Origin: Prevotella sp.
GTDB taxonomy: Bacteria > Bacteroidota > Bacteroidia > Bacteroidales > Bacteroidaceae
DNA length: 55,782 nt
Direction of reading: 5' to 3'
Assembly (NCBI GenBank): GCA_017538105.1
Contig: JAFYJN010000060.1
Span: 1 to 55,782, forward strand
Below the pieces are notes generated by a model, which was given only the letters and a program-made list of their open reading frames with translations, ran no database searches and was not told the DNA's origin. The position numbers and the translations under genes are program-made. Of this stretch, positions 14,777-41,179 are shown in pieces; position 1 is the first letter of the stretch, and each line of letters begins with the position of its first letter.

Positions 14777-14976
14777 CACCTTTTTTCAAATACTTGATTT
14801 ATTTTTGCAGGTGATTTAGATGATTATATAACGAAAAGGAGGCGTGTTTATTGGATGACGCTCCGATTTTAAATGAAATTTAGGATGATGAGAAGATTTA
14901 GGTAGTGAATGGAGATAGTCGCAGTGTTATTCTTCGGTCTTCCTTTATCTTCTTTTATCTCCATAAATTATTCAAT

Positions 14977-15690
14977 ATGGAAGTGAAAAAATCGATGGAG
15001 GCTTCGCTCGAACACCAACGCCCAACGGCATTCCTCATGGGACTGGTGCTCGCTTTGGCGTTGTTCGTGGCGGCCATCGAGTTTCACTCTTCAGATGGGG
15101 ATGTCGCTGTCGGTGACGATGCTTTCGACGAGATGGCGTCGGACATGGAGATGGTGCCGGCCATCGATCCGCGCGATATGCTGGTGGCAATGGCTCAACC
15201 GGAAACACCGGCGGTGCGCATCAACCCTGTGGAAACGGCAGTGGTTGAGGAGAACCCGATAGAGGAGGCGCTGTCGAATGCGGGTGAGGATGAGATACCT
15301 GCCGTGGAAACGGAACAGGCGCAGCCCACTACCGCTACGGATGCCCAACCGCTCATGGTCGACGCCGACAACAACGAGGTCGTGCTGCGCATCGTTCAAC
15401 AATATCCGGAATTTCCAGGGGGCATGGTACAGTTCATCAAATGGCTCACCGACAACTTACAATACCCTCTGCCGGCACGACAGCGAAACTTGCAGGGTAC
15501 GGTGGTCACCACGTTCGTGGTCAATAAAGATGGAACCATCGCCGACGCGAAGGTGCTCCATGGCGTCGACCCTCTGCTCGACAGGGAGGCGCTACGGGTG
15601 CTCAACATGATGCCACCATGGTCACCAGGACAAAATGAGGGAAAGCCTTGTCGCACCCTTGTTCGTCTCCCCATCGTCTTCAAAATATAA
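14977..15690 (+). CDS. TonB-like energy transducer
   Basis: A 237-residue inner-membrane protein that would transmit proton-motive force to outer-membrane TonB-dependent receptors. It has a short cytoplasmic N-terminus, one membrane helix (about residues 18-36), an acidic Glu/Ala/Pro-rich periplasmic linker (about 40-150) and a C-terminal TonB domain (about 155-237). The last contains PEFPGGMVQFIKWL, NLQGTVVTTFVVNKDG and MPPWSPGQNEGKPC, which are hallmarks of Bacteroidetes TonB C-terminal domains. The ATG at 14977 fits the usual start; an upstream in-frame ATG at 14905 would add 24 residues of no family character. ExbB/ExbD are not in the window. The two receptors at 24-30 kb are possible partners. 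Confidence 0.9.
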   Translation: MEVKKSMEASLEHQRPTAFLMGLVLALALFVAAIEFHSSDGDVAVGDDAFDEMASDMEMVPAIDPRDMLVAMAQPETPAVRINPVETAVVEENPIEEALSNAGEDEIPAVETEQAQPTTATDAQPLMVDADNNEVVLRIVQQYPEFPGGMVQFIKWLTDNLQYPLPARQRNLQGTVVTTFVVNKDGTIADAKVLHGVDPLLDREALRVLNMMPPWSPGQNEGKPCRTLVRLPIVFKI

Positions 15691-21830: not shown

Positions 21831-23114
21831 TTAGGGAAATTCATACACCAGATACTGTGCGTTGGGCTCGATGGGATAATTGGTGAGTCGCCCCGAGCGT
21901 GTTACAAACGACAGTATGCCATTGTATATGCCATTGCCAAATGTGAATTGGTCAGCGTAGATGTTGATATAGTGAATACGCCGGGCATCGTAGTTCAGAA
22001 GTCGCTCTGTATCGTTGACGGGCATGCCGTCAATCAGTACCAGTGTTTGCAAAGAGCTATTGTAAACTTCCTGTTCTCTACGGACAATCAGCCGGGGAAC
22101 ACCATTGATTCTTGTGTTCTTGACGCAGCTCACATATTCAATCAGCACCTCTCTGATAGTGAGAAACTGTCGGTACTCGTCAAGATTGTAAGTCAAATCA
22201 GGTCGGGTGCCTGACACTGTCTCGTCATAGTCTAACGGTACTACTTCTTCTGCCGTGTCATCGGCATAATCGCCCAACTGCAGTTCTCGCTTGGCTGGCG
22301 CAATGGCCATCTGATGCCGCTGCATGTCAAGGGAACGGGCTTCCACCTCACTCCGCTTGTAATGGAATAGGAGATGCGGGAGCCGCTTCGGGAGCAGGGT
22401 GGCAAACGGACTTATCATCTCGATGGGCAGACTCGCGCCTGTGGACGACAGGGCGGAGAGAACCAATGGCTGCTTGCCATGGATGCCGTAGGTGTAGAAG
22501 ACAGCCATGGAGTCATTGACCATCTTCCCCTCGAAATAATGTATCTGCTTACCTATGATGCTCAAGGAAGGACAAATCTGGCTGACACTGATAGCGTTGC
22601 CATCAGAGCCGTTCTTAATACGTGCTTTGATGATTTGGCCTTCCGTCTCACGTACATCGACATCCTTCTTGCTTATCAAATCGGCAGTGGAGAAACGGCC
22701 TCCCTCACCCATTGACGGATAACTCGACCCGTCGGGAGCCGTGAGTTTTACCCATTCGATGTCATCGTCCACGCTCTTGTGAAGTGGGTTGACAATAGCC
22801 ACAAGCTGGTGAGACACATTGGCGTCGTGGCGGGTATAGACAGATAACACATAGTACCCACTATGGAGGCTGGAAGGCAGTTCGATGATGCCTGTTCCCA
22901 CTCCCTCCTTGAGACTTACAACGACACCGGCTGCCAAACCGTACGTGTCACACAGTTCAGCATAGGCTATCATGGCGTCGTCGGCTGTCACGCTGACTTT
23001 CATCGCCTCACCAGCCAGATACCATGTGCGGTCAGTCTCAATATTCGCAGCATAGGTACTTAGGGAAAGCACCATCGCAGCTGTCAGTGATAATATTTTG
23101 TTGTTCATCTTCAA
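21831..23114 (-). CDS. Exported macroglobulin-like protein with TonB plug-like C-terminus
   Basis: A 427-residue protein with signal peptide (cleavage near STYA-A, residue 22). The N-terminal part (ETDRTWYLAGEAMKVSV, then SGYYVLSVYTRHD) resembles the MG-type beta-sandwich domains of alpha-2-macroglobulin-like proteins. The C-terminal part (about 320-420) resembles a TonB-receptor plug: TIREVLIEYV, QTLVLIDGMPVNDTERL, ARRIHYINIYADQFTFG and NGILSFVTRSG follow the order of plug motifs. No beta-barrel follows; the protein ends 13 residues later. It is last in an operon with a TonB-dependent receptor and a DUF4249 lipoprotein, overlapping the latter by four bases. A periplasmic or surface partner of that receptor is a reasonable guess. 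The domain calls are by eye. Confidence 0.65.
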   Translation of the reverse strand: MKMNNKILSLTAAMVLSLSTYAANIETDRTWYLAGEAMKVSVTADDAMIAYAELCDTYGLAAGVVVSLKEGVGTGIIELPSSLHSGYYVLSVYTRHDANVSHQLVAIVNPLHKSVDDDIEWVKLTAPDGSSYPSMGEGGRFSTADLISKKDVDVRETEGQIIKARIKNGSDGNAISVSQICPSLSIIGKQIHYFEGKMVNDSMAVFYTYGIHGKQPLVLSALSSTGASLPIEMISPFATLLPKRLPHLLFHYKRSEVEARSLDMQRHQMAIAPAKRELQLGDYADDTAEEVVPLDYDETVSGTRPDLTYNLDEYRQFLTIREVLIEYVSCVKNTRINGVPRLIVRREQEVYNSSLQTLVLIDGMPVNDTERLLNYDARRIHYINIYADQFTFGNGIYNGILSFVTRSGRLTNYPIEPNAQYLVYEFP

Positions 23115-35493: not shown

Positions 35494-37596
35494 TCATTTT
35501 TCAACTGTTAATGTTATTACAGGTGCGGTGGCGCAGAACTCCGGTGCGTAGGCGCATTGTGCGGTAATGCTACCACTGGTATACACGCCAGCGCGGTCCA
35601 CATAAAATTCTTTTTCGATGACGTGGGTGCCCTTGCTCAGCATCGAAATGAAATATTGGGTGGTGCAGTCACGGTTCTGCACATAATAGCCGTTACGATA
35701 ACCACTCATCGGGTCGACAGCCTCCAGACAGGCGGCACGACGGTCGTTCACCTGAACAAAGTCAAGATCACGCTTGGCGGTGAGGGTGATGCGTACCCGT
35801 ACCTTGTCGCCCACATGTAGTGCTCCGCCATGGGGCGCAATGACCTCACGGTGAACTTGTAGGTCGTTGCCCGAGGCTTCTATATCTTCGCCGCGCTGCA
35901 TATATTGGGCATAGACGGCACCCCATGAGGTGTGACGCTCGCGCTTGTCGATGGTGATGGTGTTGGTTTCAGTTGCTGGTCGCGTTGTCTTCACATATCC
36001 CAACGTGCTGGTGGCTGACGCGTCGTCCACGTTCTGTCCATCAATGCTGATGGTGGGCATGGGATAGGATGAAAGACTCTCCATATTACCGCGTAGGAAG
36101 GCATAGATGGCGTTGGCCGACTGGATGGGAGTGACCCAATATTGGCTTCGTTTCTCCTGCAACAGCCATTGACGCATCTCATCAATCGTCGTTTGGTCGT
36201 TGGGTCGGATGCGCTCCAAGGCCTCGATGACCATCACCTGGGTGGGTATCTTATAGTCCAGCCATGAATAGGGGGCGAGATAAGAATCGAAATAACGGCC
36301 GAGTGTGCGGTCGGTAACGGTCAGACTCATAATCTGGTCGAGCAGGTCGGCGGCTCCCTTCTCCCTGAAAGCGTCCAGCACGATGGCTTTCACGGCGGCG
36401 GTATAGATGTCGCTGATGTTGTTGCTCTTAGCATCACGACGCAAGGCTTTCAATTCCTTGCGAACCTCGCGCCGCAGTGAGTCGGAGGGATGCCTGTGGT
36501 CCAAGGCGCACAGGTACAGGTAGTGCAGGTCGGCTCCCTTGGTGGCCATGTAATGGAAAGCCTCATCCAACATGGGCTGGGTCTCAGGATGACGGCCGCA
36601 GAGGGCATTGCTACGTACCAACAGTTCGGCTACGACATGGGTGATGTAAGGACTGCCCGCCATGCCGGGGAACCAACTCCATGAACCATCGCCGTTTTGC
36701 AGCATGCGAAGGGCGTTCAATGCCTTGTCGTGCTGTTTCTTCTGGTTGTCACGATTAAATAACGATATCAGCTGTTTTTTCTGTTCGCGCTCGCTCTTGG
36801 CGGCCATCAGCCACGGTGTCTCGGCATGGAGGATATTCTTCACATCGTCGTTGCGCTCAAGCGGTGAGAGCATGGTGACATTGTCTTGCTCTTCGTTCCA
36901 ACGCTGGATAGCGGCATTTATCTCGTCATGGCTGCCCAACGAGGCGGCGATGTCTTGCGAGAAGAGGGACATGGCTTGACAGATGGCGCAGTCGTCGTAG
37001 GGATGGGCATATTCATGCAGGGCTTCCACCATCAGCCAGGCAGGGTTGTTGGTATATTCAAAGGTGAAACGTCGGTCTGTGCTACCCTTGGGGAAGAGTT
37101 GAGATACGTTAATCTGTGTGTTGGTGCCGGTGGGTAGCGTGAAAGAGAACGTCTTTACCTGTGGCTCGGTGCTCGGCAATACGGGCAGGTAATGCTGTTC
37201 GCCGTCGCTCATGCCGTCGGCAGTAACGCCTATCTTGCAGGTGAGCAGGGTAGGTGTCTGTTCTCCTGGGGTGTAAGAGAACGACAAGGTAGCCACACTG
37301 TCGGCCATGACCTGGAAGGGTTGGCGGCTGGTATAGACGACGCGCTCGTCTTTGGGGTCGATGAGTTGCATGATGCCGGTGCCCTTAAGGGTCTTGTCGG
37401 AGGTATTGCTCACACGGGCGGTGAGGGTCCCTTTGTCACCGCAGCGGAGGAAACGGGGCATGTTGGGCTGCACCATCAGGTCTTGGTGGGCAGTGGTCGT
37501 CGCTTCCACAATGGTGTGGTCCATGTCGCGGGTATGGGCGGAACCCAAGAACTGCCACGTGGTAATGCTTTCGGGCAAGGTGAAGGCAATGCTCAC
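35494..37596 (-). CDS. C-terminal part of the A2M-like protein
   Basis: About 700 residues from a possible GTG at 37596. It starts with the A2M domain (SIAFTLPESITTWQFLGSAH), followed by the alpha-helical toroid that in the family carries the CxEQ thioester: here NPAWLMVEALHEYAHPYDDCAICQ, where the acidic residue is gone, so no thioester is expected. Helical-repeat residues (NGDGSWSWFPGMAGSPYITHVV) and the receptor-binding-like C-terminal beta domain (ALHVGDKVRVRITLTAKRDLDFVQVNDRRA) follow. Whether it is translated alone is doubtful; no start signals are visible and it lacks a signal peptide. Confidence 0.75.
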   Translation of the reverse strand: MSIAFTLPESITTWQFLGSAHTRDMDHTIVEATTTAHQDLMVQPNMPRFLRCGDKGTLTARVSNTSDKTLKGTGIMQLIDPKDERVVYTSRQPFQVMADSVATLSFSYTPGEQTPTLLTCKIGVTADGMSDGEQHYLPVLPSTEPQVKTFSFTLPTGTNTQINVSQLFPKGSTDRRFTFEYTNNPAWLMVEALHEYAHPYDDCAICQAMSLFSQDIAASLGSHDEINAAIQRWNEEQDNVTMLSPLERNDDVKNILHAETPWLMAAKSEREQKKQLISLFNRDNQKKQHDKALNALRMLQNGDGSWSWFPGMAGSPYITHVVAELLVRSNALCGRHPETQPMLDEAFHYMATKGADLHYLYLCALDHRHPSDSLRREVRKELKALRRDAKSNNISDIYTAAVKAIVLDAFREKGAADLLDQIMSLTVTDRTLGRYFDSYLAPYSWLDYKIPTQVMVIEALERIRPNDQTTIDEMRQWLLQEKRSQYWVTPIQSANAIYAFLRGNMESLSSYPMPTISIDGQNVDDASATSTLGYVKTTRPATETNTITIDKRERHTSWGAVYAQYMQRGEDIEASGNDLQVHREVIAPHGGALHVGDKVRVRITLTAKRDLDFVQVNDRRAACLEAVDPMSGYRNGYYVQNRDCTTQYFISMLSKGTHVIEKEFYVDRAGVYTSGSITAQCAYAPEFCATAPVITLTVEK

Positions 37597-40500
37597 CTCG
37601 CCGTTGCTGTCGGTGCGAAGGGTGGGTAGAAGAAGGCTGTTTCCGACAGGTTCTCACGCATGGCGATATTCATGGGCACACTCGGCGAAGTGGCTTGCTT
37701 CCCTTGATTAGTGGTGATGATGACGACTCCCCCTGCCGCCTGTGCTCCATAGATACTGGTAGCATCACTGCCACTGAGGGTGGTCATCTCGATGATGGCA
37801 TCGGAGGGGATACTGCTGATGTCATTAACAATCTCGCCGTTGACGACATAAAGAGGCGGAATATCATCTTGTAACTTACTATCGCGTTTGATAACAGGCT
37901 CTGAAATTTTAACTCCACTTACGCTTCCCGTCAGCGAACTTTTCTTTTGGACACCATAGCCCACAACGACCACTTCATTCAATGCGTTTTCGTCTTCTTC
38001 CAACACCACATTGATGGTGTGCGATATCACATGCAGGGTCTTCGTCTTGTAGCCGACATAGGCGAAGGAGAGACGGCTGCCGGCAGGGGCGGTCATCGTG
38101 TAATTGCCGTCGATGTCGGTCACGGTACCTATCCGGGTGCCAGTCACCATGACCGATGCTCCGATGAGAGGTTCACCATCGGCATCTGTCACACAACCGC
38201 TCACAGGTACTCCTTGCCCATAATTGCCGATGCCGAAATTGAGCCAACTCATGATGAGTTCTTCTTCCTTGGCGTGCTTGGAATGGACATAATCATAGGC
38301 ATTCATTCGATATGACTCTGGGTAATAGGCCACATCTCCCAGACGGCGTATTAGACGGGTGTCCCACGACCAACGGTGGCGACTCAACTCATCGAGCGAC
38401 TTATCGTACAGGGTGGCTATCAAACGGGCATCGGCGGGACGGCCGTCCTGATGAGTCAGTTTCAAACGCCACTCTTCTTTTTGACCGGGCATCAACTTGT
38501 CGCGGAAGGTGGACCACTGGGCGGTAAGATGTTTGTTGGGTTTCGGCTTCTCAAAACTGGCGTGCTCCTGGTGGAATTCTCCGTTGCTGTACCAACTGTA
38601 CACCACAGTGATGCCGTCACCGTATTCATCGCGGTAGGGGTAATCCTGCCTGATGATGCTGTCGCTCAGATGTAACAACCCCTGGTTCAACAGACTGTCG
38701 GCGGTGAAGACAGAATAGTGGATAGTGACATCGCGCTCTGAAGTACCTATCCATACACTGCACGGCTCTTTGCCTTCTTCGTCAAAGGTGGAACCGGATA
38801 CATCAAACCAGTCAGAGGTGGATACACACGGACGGGTGGCGTCTCGGTCATAGACGATGAATACCTGGCGCAGGGTGTCGCCTTCATGGGTGACGACAAG
38901 GGTATGGGGGCCTGTGCCTAATTGCGGAGCGGTAAATGAGTTGCCCTGTCCTGATTGGCCGTCCAACGAGTAATGAAGGGGAATGTCAATGACATTGCCG
39001 CAAAAATTGGTGGCTTTGAGGGTAATCGTGTAGTTCTCCAAATCGCGCCGTTCAATGAGCTTGCCTTGCACATTGCTACTCAACGCAATTCCGCGTTTTG
39101 TGAATTGGAAGTTCTCAGTCACGTCGTGGGTCTCACCGGCGGCGTCTGTCACATAAGCGTGTATCTCCGTGCGGTAGATGTCATCATCGATAGGGTAACG
39201 TTCTTGACTGATAATGGGGAGGGTGATGACAAACCGTCCTTCATGGTCAGTCATGAGAGTGTCGCATTCGTCGCGCAACATTTTGGAATTTTGTCTGAAA
39301 CTACGTATGAAGGCGCTCCATGTCACGGTGGCTCCTCGTAACGGTTCACCGGTGATGGTCTGGGCATGGCCACTCAAGCGCAGTGTGTCACCGATGCGCA
39401 CTACATCGTTGCTCTTGTCAAGGCTGACTTTGAAGGTGGGTCGTTTGTATTCCTCTACACGGATAGTCTGACTGGAGGAACCGTGTAAGCGTTGCTTGAT
39501 GTCCGAACGTTTTTTGTCGATGCTAAGGGTGTAGTTGCCCAAGGGTAGATGGGCAGGCAGCCGATACTCGAGATGTGCGGTGCCATAGGTGTCGGTGGTC
39601 AACGACAAACTGTCAATCTCTTTCCATTGCGGATTCTTCACGGTTACGATGAACGACTGGTTGGGTAGTACTCGCGTGGTGCAACGCTCCTGGCTGTAGG
39701 CGACCAAGGCCAAATGGACGGTCTGGCCGGGACGGTAAACGCTGCGGTCGGTCATAAGCTCACCTACCACTTGTTCTTCATCCTCTTCTTTCATGTCATC
39801 GAAGAAACTATGGTCGTCGGGGTTGAACGTGGGTAGCGCATGGTCGTCTTTGGTAAATAGAACGCAGTCTATATAGTCGTCATCAAGATACACTTGTCCG
39901 TGCTGATTTGCGGATATGGTTGTCGTTTCTTCTTCTTCGTCATCATAATACTGAAGGGTGGCTGTCGACAAGGGTTGTCCCGTCAAGGCATCGACGGCGG
40001 TAATCAGACAACTGTCATTAGACAGGGGCGTGATGAGCGGACGGATGTCACTCACAAACAATAGGTGGCGCAGCGGTTCCATCTTCGGTTTCGATGACGA
40101 GTTTATTTCTACAATATAGATTCCCACGGGAAGGGGAGCCACTCGCAACGTATCGTTCTGGATGTTTCTAAGGGTTTCTTCTCTGAAGACCATTTCTTGA
40201 CGGAGGGCCGATAACTCTTTACACTTATGCGTTTTGCGGAATTCCCTGAAACCATCCTTGTCTAACTCTGTATCATCTGCTTCGAAATCTGGTTCGTCGT
40301 TGTGCATGTCGGTACGGTAGATGCGCAGGGTGGCGTTGCTGACGTTCCTATGCGTAAACTCAAGTCGCAGACTGTCGCGCGAGGTGAGGAGATAGGAGAA
40401 ACTCTCCATCCGGGACATGGGGTCGGTCATCGCGTTGTAAGCATTGCGGAGGATGTTGATGCGTTCGTATTTATTGTAACGGTTGAGAATCTTCTCCAAA

Positions 40501-41129
40501 TACGACACCTTGTCGGCCTGTGTCACGTCACTTGCCATATCCATGAAGGCATAACGCTCGATGGCAAGCTCGCCAGAGAGGTCGAGGTCACCATAAACAG
40601 TCATCAACGAGTCGAGGGAGCCTACATAGGTGGAACCTTCCATTTTTCTTGTTCCACCGTCGCCACGCTGACGCAACGACTCTAAGGCACACAGCAGGGC
40701 GGCCTCCCTGCGACCATGATTCTCGTAGTAGTCGTGCAACAGGTCGTATTCGCCTAACTCATAGCCAATCACACTCAACATATCGTCGTTGAAATATTTT
40801 CCCATCGACATGCGGTGTACCAATTTGGGATAGTCCTTCGCTCGGGCTAGCGCCAGAGCGTCGAGGTCGCTCAATGCCAGCCGGCGGTATTCACGGGCGA
40901 CGCTGTCGGTGGTCTGCATCGACAACAATGTCTCCAGCACGGCGGCTTCCACACGGTTGGTATGGCGTAACGACAGCTCACGCTCCACAATCTCTTGGAG
41001 CACGGCAGGAATACTGTCTGCCGATATTTTGGCTTGCTGGCCCAAACGGGTGTAATCGGAATCGCTCCCTTGTGCCATGACATACATGGCGGAAAAAGCA
41101 AAAAGTATGGTGAATATCTTTCTCATCAT
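37593..41129 (-). CDS. N-terminal part of the A2M-like protein with embedded plug module
   Basis: About 1178 residues from ATG 41129. Signal peptide (KIFTILFAFSAMYVMAQ), several macroglobulin beta-sandwich domains (TDRSVYRPGQTVHLALVAYS is the MG2 motif near 470; DLSL and VEEYKRPTFKVSL follow in MG3). From about residue 980 to 1150 there is a carboxypeptidase-like domain (GCVTDADGEPLIGASVMV, FAYVGYKTKTL) and a TonB plug-like region with SusC-type signatures (NEVVVVGYGVQKKSSLTGSV, PPLYVVNGEI, SGSDATSIYGAQAAGGVVII). No barrel follows; instead the A2M domain begins and the frame breaks. Likely a periplasmic or outer-membrane anchored protein. Confidence 0.85.
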   Translation of the reverse strand: MMRKIFTILFAFSAMYVMAQGSDSDYTRLGQQAKISADSIPAVLQEIVERELSLRHTNRVEAAVLETLLSMQTTDSVAREYRRLALSDLDALALARAKDYPKLVHRMSMGKYFNDDMLSVIGYELGEYDLLHDYYENHGRREAALLCALESLRQRGDGGTRKMEGSTYVGSLDSLMTVYGDLDLSGELAIERYAFMDMASDVTQADKVSYLEKILNRYNKYERINILRNAYNAMTDPMSRMESFSYLLTSRDSLRLEFTHRNVSNATLRIYRTDMHNDEPDFEADDTELDKDGFREFRKTHKCKELSALRQEMVFREETLRNIQNDTLRVAPLPVGIYIVEINSSSKPKMEPLRHLLFVSDIRPLITPLSNDSCLITAVDALTGQPLSTATLQYYDDEEEETTTISANQHGQVYLDDDYIDCVLFTKDDHALPTFNPDDHSFFDDMKEEDEEQVVGELMTDRSVYRPGQTVHLALVAYSQERCTTRVLPNQSFIVTVKNPQWKEIDSLSLTTDTYGTAHLEYRLPAHLPLGNYTLSIDKKRSDIKQRLHGSSSQTIRVEEYKRPTFKVSLDKSNDVVRIGDTLRLSGHAQTITGEPLRGATVTWSAFIRSFRQNSKMLRDECDTLMTDHEGRFVITLPIISQERYPIDDDIYRTEIHAYVTDAAGETHDVTENFQFTKRGIALSSNVQGKLIERRDLENYTITLKATNFCGNVIDIPLHYSLDGQSGQGNSFTAPQLGTGPHTLVVTHEGDTLRQVFIVYDRDATRPCVSTSDWFDVSGSTFDEEGKEPCSVWIGTSERDVTIHYSVFTADSLLNQGLLHLSDSIIRQDYPYRDEYGDGITVVYSWYSNGEFHQEHASFEKPKPNKHLTAQWSTFRDKLMPGQKEEWRLKLTHQDGRPADARLIATLYDKSLDELSRHRWSWDTRLIRRLGDVAYYPESYRMNAYDYVHSKHAKEEELIMSWLNFGIGNYGQGVPVSGCVTDADGEPLIGASVMVTGTRIGTVTDIDGNYTMTAPAGSRLSFAYVGYKTKTLHVISHTINVVLEEDENALNEVVVVGYGVQKKSSLTGSVSGVKISEPVIKRDSKLQDDIPPLYVVNGEIVNDISSIPSDAIIEMTTLSGSDATSIYGAQAAGGVVIITTNQGKQATSPSVPMNIAMRENLSETAFFYPPFAPTATAR

Positions 41130-41148
41130 TGTTGTAGGTTTAACAACG

Positions 41149-41179
41149 CAAAAGTACTCCATATTTTTGATTATTCCAA
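41149..41179 (-). promoter_or_regulatory. Promoter of the A2M-like locus
   Basis: On the minus strand TTG (41179-41177) is followed after 20 bases by TACTTTTG (41156-41149), close to the Bacteroidetes consensus. It lies 19 bases before ATG 41129. Confidence 0.65.

Follow-up and report, generated by a model that had tools for sequence, protein, structure and literature searches.

The analysed window comprises 55,782 nucleotides of a Prevotella sp. genome (GenBank assembly GCA_017538105.1, contig JAFYJN010000060.1, positions 1 to 55,782) and contains on its minus strand an alpha-2-macroglobulin (A2M) gene divided between two reading frames. The first frame (37593..41162, 1189 aa) includes a signal-peptide-like start, macroglobulin (MG) domains and a bait region with a SusC-type insert. 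The first-pass annotation had placed this frame at 37593-41129, and the frame itself was confirmed while its extent was revised. The second frame (35494..37596, 700 aa) includes the A2M domain PF00207, the thioester-domain region without the CxEQ motif, and bMG10. The domain order detected with Pfam was that of the A2M family: MG2 (PF01835, E 5.4e-15; residues 469-553, 39504..39758), followed by A2M (E 1.4e-15; residues 2-72 of the second frame, profile positions 17-88, 37381..37593) and bMG10 (PF17973, E 1.2e-21; 35539..35838). In the alignment, CAICQ (36976..36990) takes the place of the CxEQ thioester motif of other members.

The two frames, which were analysed separately, belong to a single gene that is interrupted by a frameshift near 37593-37640, as two relatives have the whole gene in one frame. 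One of these, L033 from a Prevotella genome of water buffalo, has an intact A2M of 1879 aa with 95% identity across the second half, and the other, L034 from a Prevotellaceae genome, one of 1894 aa with 66% identity. The frameshift may be a real mutation or an assembly error. Since it splits the gene, the A2M gene may be inactive in the source genome. The same genome also has on contig C5 a second A2M copy, a 1849-aa open frame without the insert.

The insert consists of four parts. The SusC N-terminal extension (CarbopepD_reg_2, E 4.5e-20) covers residues 987-1066 (37965..38204), and the TonB-box-like motif LNEVVVVGYG with its linker covers residues 1060-1079 (37926..37985; 43.8 bits with our SusC model). 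A shortened plug middle follows (residues 1080-1101, 37860..37925), and then the C-terminal plug half, PLYVVNG ... SIYGAQAAGGVVIITT (residues 1102-1151, 37710..37859; 47.4 bits). Of the NCBIfam models, the SusC/RagA model TIGR04056 matched the first frame in two stretches (E 1.5e-51, the best at residues 987-1089) and the SusC signature model TIGR04057 matched residues 1125-1151 (E 8.6e-7); both matches of the window copy scored below the cut-offs curated for full SusC proteins. In a phmmer comparison of L033 with the SusC 8aa4_A, residues 957-1077 were aligned with 14-136 and residues 1072-1149 with 162-240, and about 25 plug residues were absent between the two blocks. On the basis of these model matches and the two-block alignment, the insert is identified from sequence as the N-terminal module of SusC/RagA, composed of the N-terminal extension, the TonB box and a plug lacking about 25 residues.

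The first-pass annotation had described an A2M-like protein that contains barrel-less plug and carboxypeptidase-like modules, citing the signatures VVVVGYGVQKKSSLTG and DATSIYGAQAAGGVVII, and both signatures were found in the first frame. By sequence, what the annotation called carboxypeptidase-like is the SusC N-terminal extension and not a separate, unrelated domain; this origin, like the placement of the insert in the bait region, had been missed. The suggested Pfam check recovered MG2, CarbopepD_reg_2 and A2M. Plug was only weakly matched in the window copy (E 0.037, profile positions 59-107 of 107), with E-values of 0.0013 in L033 and 1.4e-5 in L034, while the SusC models were clear. No beta-barrel was found after the insert, the next domain being PF00207 in the second frame. 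A hidden downstream barrel, which the annotation had named as grounds for refuting its proposal, was rejected, as PF00207 and bMG10 are encoded in the continuation. The window protein is thus not a SusC/RagA transporter, and gated transport of the normal kind is excluded, as had been proposed. Recent copying from a SusC gene elsewhere in the genome was also rejected as the origin of the insert: the best-scoring other DNA match had 73% identity over 85 bases.

The bait segment of the window copy (residues 925-1166, 37665..38390, minus strand) extends from YDKSLD, the end of the upstream MG strand, to the RENLSETAFF stretch at the start of PF00207. Its anchors were set with a hidden Markov model (HMM) on 166 relatives and by locating the same words in the window; an alignment with human A2M gives further evidence for the segment. 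In L033, residue 1165 is the first of PF00207 (profile position 1) and lies a few residues past the end of the insert. A profile of 17 full-length relatives aligned RENLNETAFFYP to RKYFPETWIW of human A2M (i-Evalue 0.025, weak alone), a stretch which we take to come just after the human bait. Residues 1178-1250 of L033 were aligned to 959-1030 of the E. coli A2M chain with an E-value of only 0.19, and the bait-region stretch Arg923-Leu942 of the E. coli protein is described as disordered (PMC4498604). Because of the start of PF00207 and these two alignments, the insert is placed by sequence exactly in the bait region, ending directly before PF00207.

The greater part of the insert is evolving under purifying selection. 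Between the window copy and L033, the two bodies had ratios of nonsynonymous to synonymous substitution rates (dN/dS) of 0.17 and 0.08. Within the insert, the ratio was 0.16 in the N-terminal extension, where there were just three changes, and 0.24 in the C-terminal plug half, and the TonB-box stretch had no amino-acid change (dN 0). For the whole insert the ratio was 0.48. The 22 codons of the plug middle had a ratio of 0.98 and 36% identity to L033, and their flanks were 86-100% identical. In comparison to L034, for which dS was above 1, dN/dS was 0.28 for the insert, 0.28 for the N-terminal extension and 0.08 for the TonB-box stretch (dN 0.15). The scrambled plug middle is consistent with a functionless origin, in which a loose bait linker would have taken up common SusC N-termini once or several times, leaving tolerated inserts and their decaying remains. 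The N-terminal extension, the TonB box and the C-terminal plug half argue against it with ratios of 0-0.28, even if there are few changes in comparison to L033. We regard such functionless capture as rather unlikely.

Relatives of the A2M were found in 135 of 151 genomes of the family and in 95 of 296 genomes of the phylum. As the first-pass annotation expected, related architectures exist elsewhere in Bacteroidota: the recurrence is wide and includes A2Ms with a thioester. Part of these relatives, together with the best 80 of 555 named loci, yielded 166 distinct bait segments with the HMM anchors; eight loci (L096, L176-L182) yielded none. The 166 baits and that of the window, 167 altogether, were scored with four models built from 23 SusC N-termini, with 3340 shuffles and same-length A2M-body segments as controls, skipping those segments that ran off a fragment. 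SusC-like pieces scoring above every shuffle and every A2M-body control were present in 61 of the 167 baits. With E<1e-3, the N-terminal extension was detected in 20 baits, the TonB box in 20, the N-terminal plug part (plug-N) in 10 and the C-terminal one (plug-C) in 13, and the two controls gave 0 and 0. Lone pieces were a TonB box in 22 baits, plug-N in 11, the N-terminal extension in five and plug-C in three.

When 218 baits (two genera added) were scanned with SusC cut into 25 slices, slices 1-5, from the N-terminal extension through the plug end, had 31, 51, 42, 31 and 37 matches. Slice 0 and slices 6-24 had altogether five marginal matches, none of them with E<1e-3. In slice 21, that level was reached by one shuffled segment. 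The SusC-like matches of the baits thus end sharply at the border between plug and barrel. Chance resemblance to SusC was rejected by the shuffle and control scores and by this slice scan. The near absence of barrel slices also speaks against functionless uptake, as does the Pfam search of 150 of the 166 baits, where CarboxypepD was found in 19 and Plug in 12 and no other named family in more than three. Several of the minor Pfam models are Ig- or transthyretin-like and were taken as overlapping the CarboxypepD fold. The NCBIfam models matched SusC in 27 of the 150 baits, the SusC signature in 12 and one other receptor model in six. Also BamP, a barrel-assembly protein model, was matched in six (best E 5.3e-7), perhaps via the carboxypeptidase-like domain.

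The pieces were unevenly distributed between genera. In genus g35, some genomes of which belong also to the phylum set, they were present in 25 of the 28 readable baits, with the N-terminal extension in 20 and plug-C in 23. In genus g33 they were present in 17 of 30 baits and were mostly short. Seven g33 baits had both the TonB box and plug-N, and in six of these the order, judged by eye, was the reverse of that in SusC, plug-N coming first. The reversed baits were L252-L255, L259 and L274; L269 alone had the SusC order.

A second class of A2Ms was reached through the 27 loci falling outside the first class, of which 25 had CxEQ and one, L345, a complete module. In L345, CarbopepD_reg_2 (350-437, E 8.4e-23) and Plug (445-547, profile positions 2-107 of 107, E 6.5e-14) are directly followed by A2M (565-647). 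When the family was searched with L345, 17 loci of this class were recovered, its own gene included, all of them with CxEQ. All four parts were detected in nine loci, some in seven and none in one (L362). In 15 of the 17 the pieces were located at the bait; the one match in L367 was weak (12.4 bits) and lay clearly upstream of it. Because the thresholds of the bait set were here applied to whole frames, less weight is given to single weak parts in this class. The search also returned 13 first-class loci, of which three had fragments only and ten had nothing. The identical placement in two A2M classes is a further point against functionless capture.

Also the complete plugs bear on what the module might do. 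It could in principle act as a spare plug, entering a SusC-type barrel or binding its periplasmic face and thereby tethering the A2M or closing a barrel that has lost its own plug to cleavage. Modules complete over the plug, such as that of L345 and the G268 protein of L125 (TIGR04056 match 3-219), are compatible with this. The window plug, short by about 25 residues, and the frequent loss in A2M modules of residues strongly conserved in SusC plugs are not, and we consider a spare plug very improbable.

These losses appeared when the 25 most complete A2M modules, those with N-terminal extension and plug-C, were compared with 59 SusCs. Often lost in the A2M modules were G98, the SGxPG loop (kept in 36-40%), E178 (8%), D185 (48%) and G208. 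The residue class of the TonB-box columns L, E, V, V and V was kept in 84-100% of the modules, the identity of these columns in the SusCs being 80-93%. This retention, while loop and plug positions were often lost, would fit docking, in which the module in the bait binds TonB via its TonB box. Also the dN of 0 and 0.15 in the TonB-box stretch would agree with docking, as would the TonB C-terminal domain encoded at 14905-15690 of the window and the requirement of the TonB box for the function of the transporter Bt1763 (PMC7782687). All 19 full-length proteins inspected by eye had a signal-peptide-like start and no lipobox, and for this reason they are probably located in the periplasm, the compartment of TonB. 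Against docking, the glycine following the TonB box was kept in 56% of the 25 modules as compared with 95% of the SusCs, and the baits with plug-C only, plug-N only or the N-terminal extension only had no TonB box above the threshold. Docking seems possible but on balance unlikely. A more elaborate form of it, which we consider doubtful, is that TonB would grip the TonB box of the bait, so that the state of the macroglobulin would depend on the energised inner membrane and the trap would be stationed, or mechanically armed or fired, at transporters that let foreign proteins in. If so, this would to our knowledge be the first TonB client known as a defence protein and not a transporter.

The reading we place first, tentatively, is that the SusC module is a lure, by which the trap would sample proteases attacking the periplasmic face of SusC-type transporters; docking is placed second, functionless capture third and the spare plug last. 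Cleavage of the A2M bait by a protease springs the trap (PMC4498604). The protein would be an A2M-type protease trap, probably periplasmic, with the periplasm-facing N-terminal module of SusC/RagA as its bait. A protease attacking the exposed periplasmic face of TonB-dependent transporters would cut the lure instead, on which the macroglobulin ring would close and hold the protease. The hold would be covalent in members with an intact CxEQ; in those without, of which the window copy is one, it would be non-covalent, like the trapping described for MagD. Since many related bacteria have the same arrangement, the trap possibly protects the transporter system. A lure would account for the presence of the N-terminal module only, the lone pieces, the reversed order, and CxEQ in many carriers. 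Of the first-class members with the N-terminal extension or plug-C, 17 of 24 retain CxEQ, which is present in 20 of 29 loci of g35. At the expected place it was found in 47 of 60 loci of the phylum set and in 0 of 106 of the set L002-L112. The lone and reversed-order pieces are easier to reconcile with mimicry of a linear substrate than with a docking module that has to fold.

Several observations weigh against the lure. The retention of the TonB-box columns is expected at least as well from docking to TonB, and the lone fragments are possibly decaying remnants. The TonB-box-only baits are the weakest class, 12 of the 22 being under 10 bits. No SusC piece was detectable in 106 of the 167 baits, and the family can therefore do without the module; this majority without a module also favours functionless capture. 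The pieces of g33 are present in 17 of 30 loci, yet CxEQ only in three of 30. The window copy itself is split and lacks CxEQ. A piece of 13 residues with the motif LQGRIAG, found in 10 of 106 baits of L002-L112, had 79% identity as compared with 33% for whole baits and 55% for the bodies, but this value is inflated because the set was selected by a motif inside the piece. Furthermore, the protease-trap function of the module-bearing A2Ms is inferred from sequence.

The trees left more than one history for the module. In the tree of A2M bodies, whose 93 rows comprised the phylum set, the five rows of L002-L112 that carry the module and 28 more of that set drawn randomly, the module state needed at least eight changes, at least five of them forced by the starred branches, which would suit functionless capture. 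In the module trees the A2M rows were divided among several groups. The tree of N-terminal extensions (20 A2M and 59 SusC rows) had nine label changes. When L118, L120, L121, L148 and L088 were left out, five changes remained and a single A2M clade had a p-value of 0.213 in the approximately unbiased (AU) test. In the full-module tree (25 A2M and 59 SusC rows) there were four changes, and holding the A2M rows together produced a higher likelihood (p-value 0.574). Without L291, L306, L309 and L345 there were two changes, and the A2M rows held together were again likelier (p-value 0.745). A single A2M clade was thus rejected in none of the three tests, and the gain in likelihood weighs against the initial idea of many separate captures. 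One old A2M-specific lineage with many losses and several captures are both compatible with the trees.

All the domain parts are already named in domain libraries. In the open-access literature we found no paper linking macroglobulins to plug domains or TonB boxes, nor any on the link between SusC module and A2M bait, its recurrence or its sharp end at the barrel border. The type I A2Ms, E. coli YfhM/ECAM and Salmonella Sa-A2M, share with the Bacteroidota proteins MG2, PF00207, bMG10, the bait before PF00207 and, in many members, CxEQ. They differ from them by the SusC N-terminal module in the Bacteroidota bait and from the window copy by its lack of CxEQ. YfhM is a lipoprotein according to its PDB title, unlike the 19 inspected proteins without a lipobox. 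In this one feature, CAICQ in place of CxEQ, the window copy agrees with the type II A2Ms and not with type I. The type II A2Ms lack CxEQ, and MagD of Pseudomonas aeruginosa, which is of this type, traps a protease after bait cleavage all the same (PMC5764988); it is described as protecting from certain type VI secretion effectors (PMC12663445). Like the window copy, MagD has no thioester and retains the bait, and it is a periplasmic, non-covalent trap; no SusC-type module is mentioned for it in the parts of these two papers drawn on here (PMC5764988, PMC12663445).

The SusC/RagA transporters (TIGR04056; Bt1763) have a homologous N-terminal extension, TonB box and plug in the same order as the window copy, in which the module lies inside an A2M, has no beta-barrel and is shortened in the plug middle. 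Oar of Myxococcus is a TonB-dependent transporter tied to a protease through the secretion of PopC, and the paper describing it speaks of a plug domain and of a carboxypeptidase regulatory-like domain; it differs in being a full transporter that acts in protease secretion and not in a macroglobulin (PMC6434023). The function of the SusC N-terminal extension has been called unknown (PMC7782687), and a lure would offer it a role beyond transport. The bait determines what a macroglobulin reacts to, and if traps of Bacteroidota are baited with a piece of a nutrient transporter, their likely target is whatever cuts those transporters. If true, the lure would turn the purpose of bacterial macroglobulins into a test with named parts.

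A motif resembling FxPPVVKxDEE was observed in five of the 218 baits (L101, L121, L148, L151 and L167), and in none of 166 A2M bodies (many of them partial), 59 SusCs or 20 shuffle rounds. Elsewhere in the window, the first-pass annotation had pointed to a second barrel-less plug-like protein at 21831-23114. This is a 427-aa protein (21834-23114) adjoining a DUF4249 gene and a Plug-containing protein. Its C-terminus had a faint likeness to the SusC plug-C model (6.6 bits), and the protein had no match in Pfam or NCBIfam, so that its status as a second plug protein, judged from sequence, is possible but weak. It had a match in 14 of 60 genomes, in eight of which, the source included, the identity was over 50%. 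In genome G238, a 1895-aa open frame (contig C5, 148691-151072) shows SusC N-terminal matches at two separate places and, among the matches listed, none to the barrel, and it is perhaps a further barrel-less plug protein.

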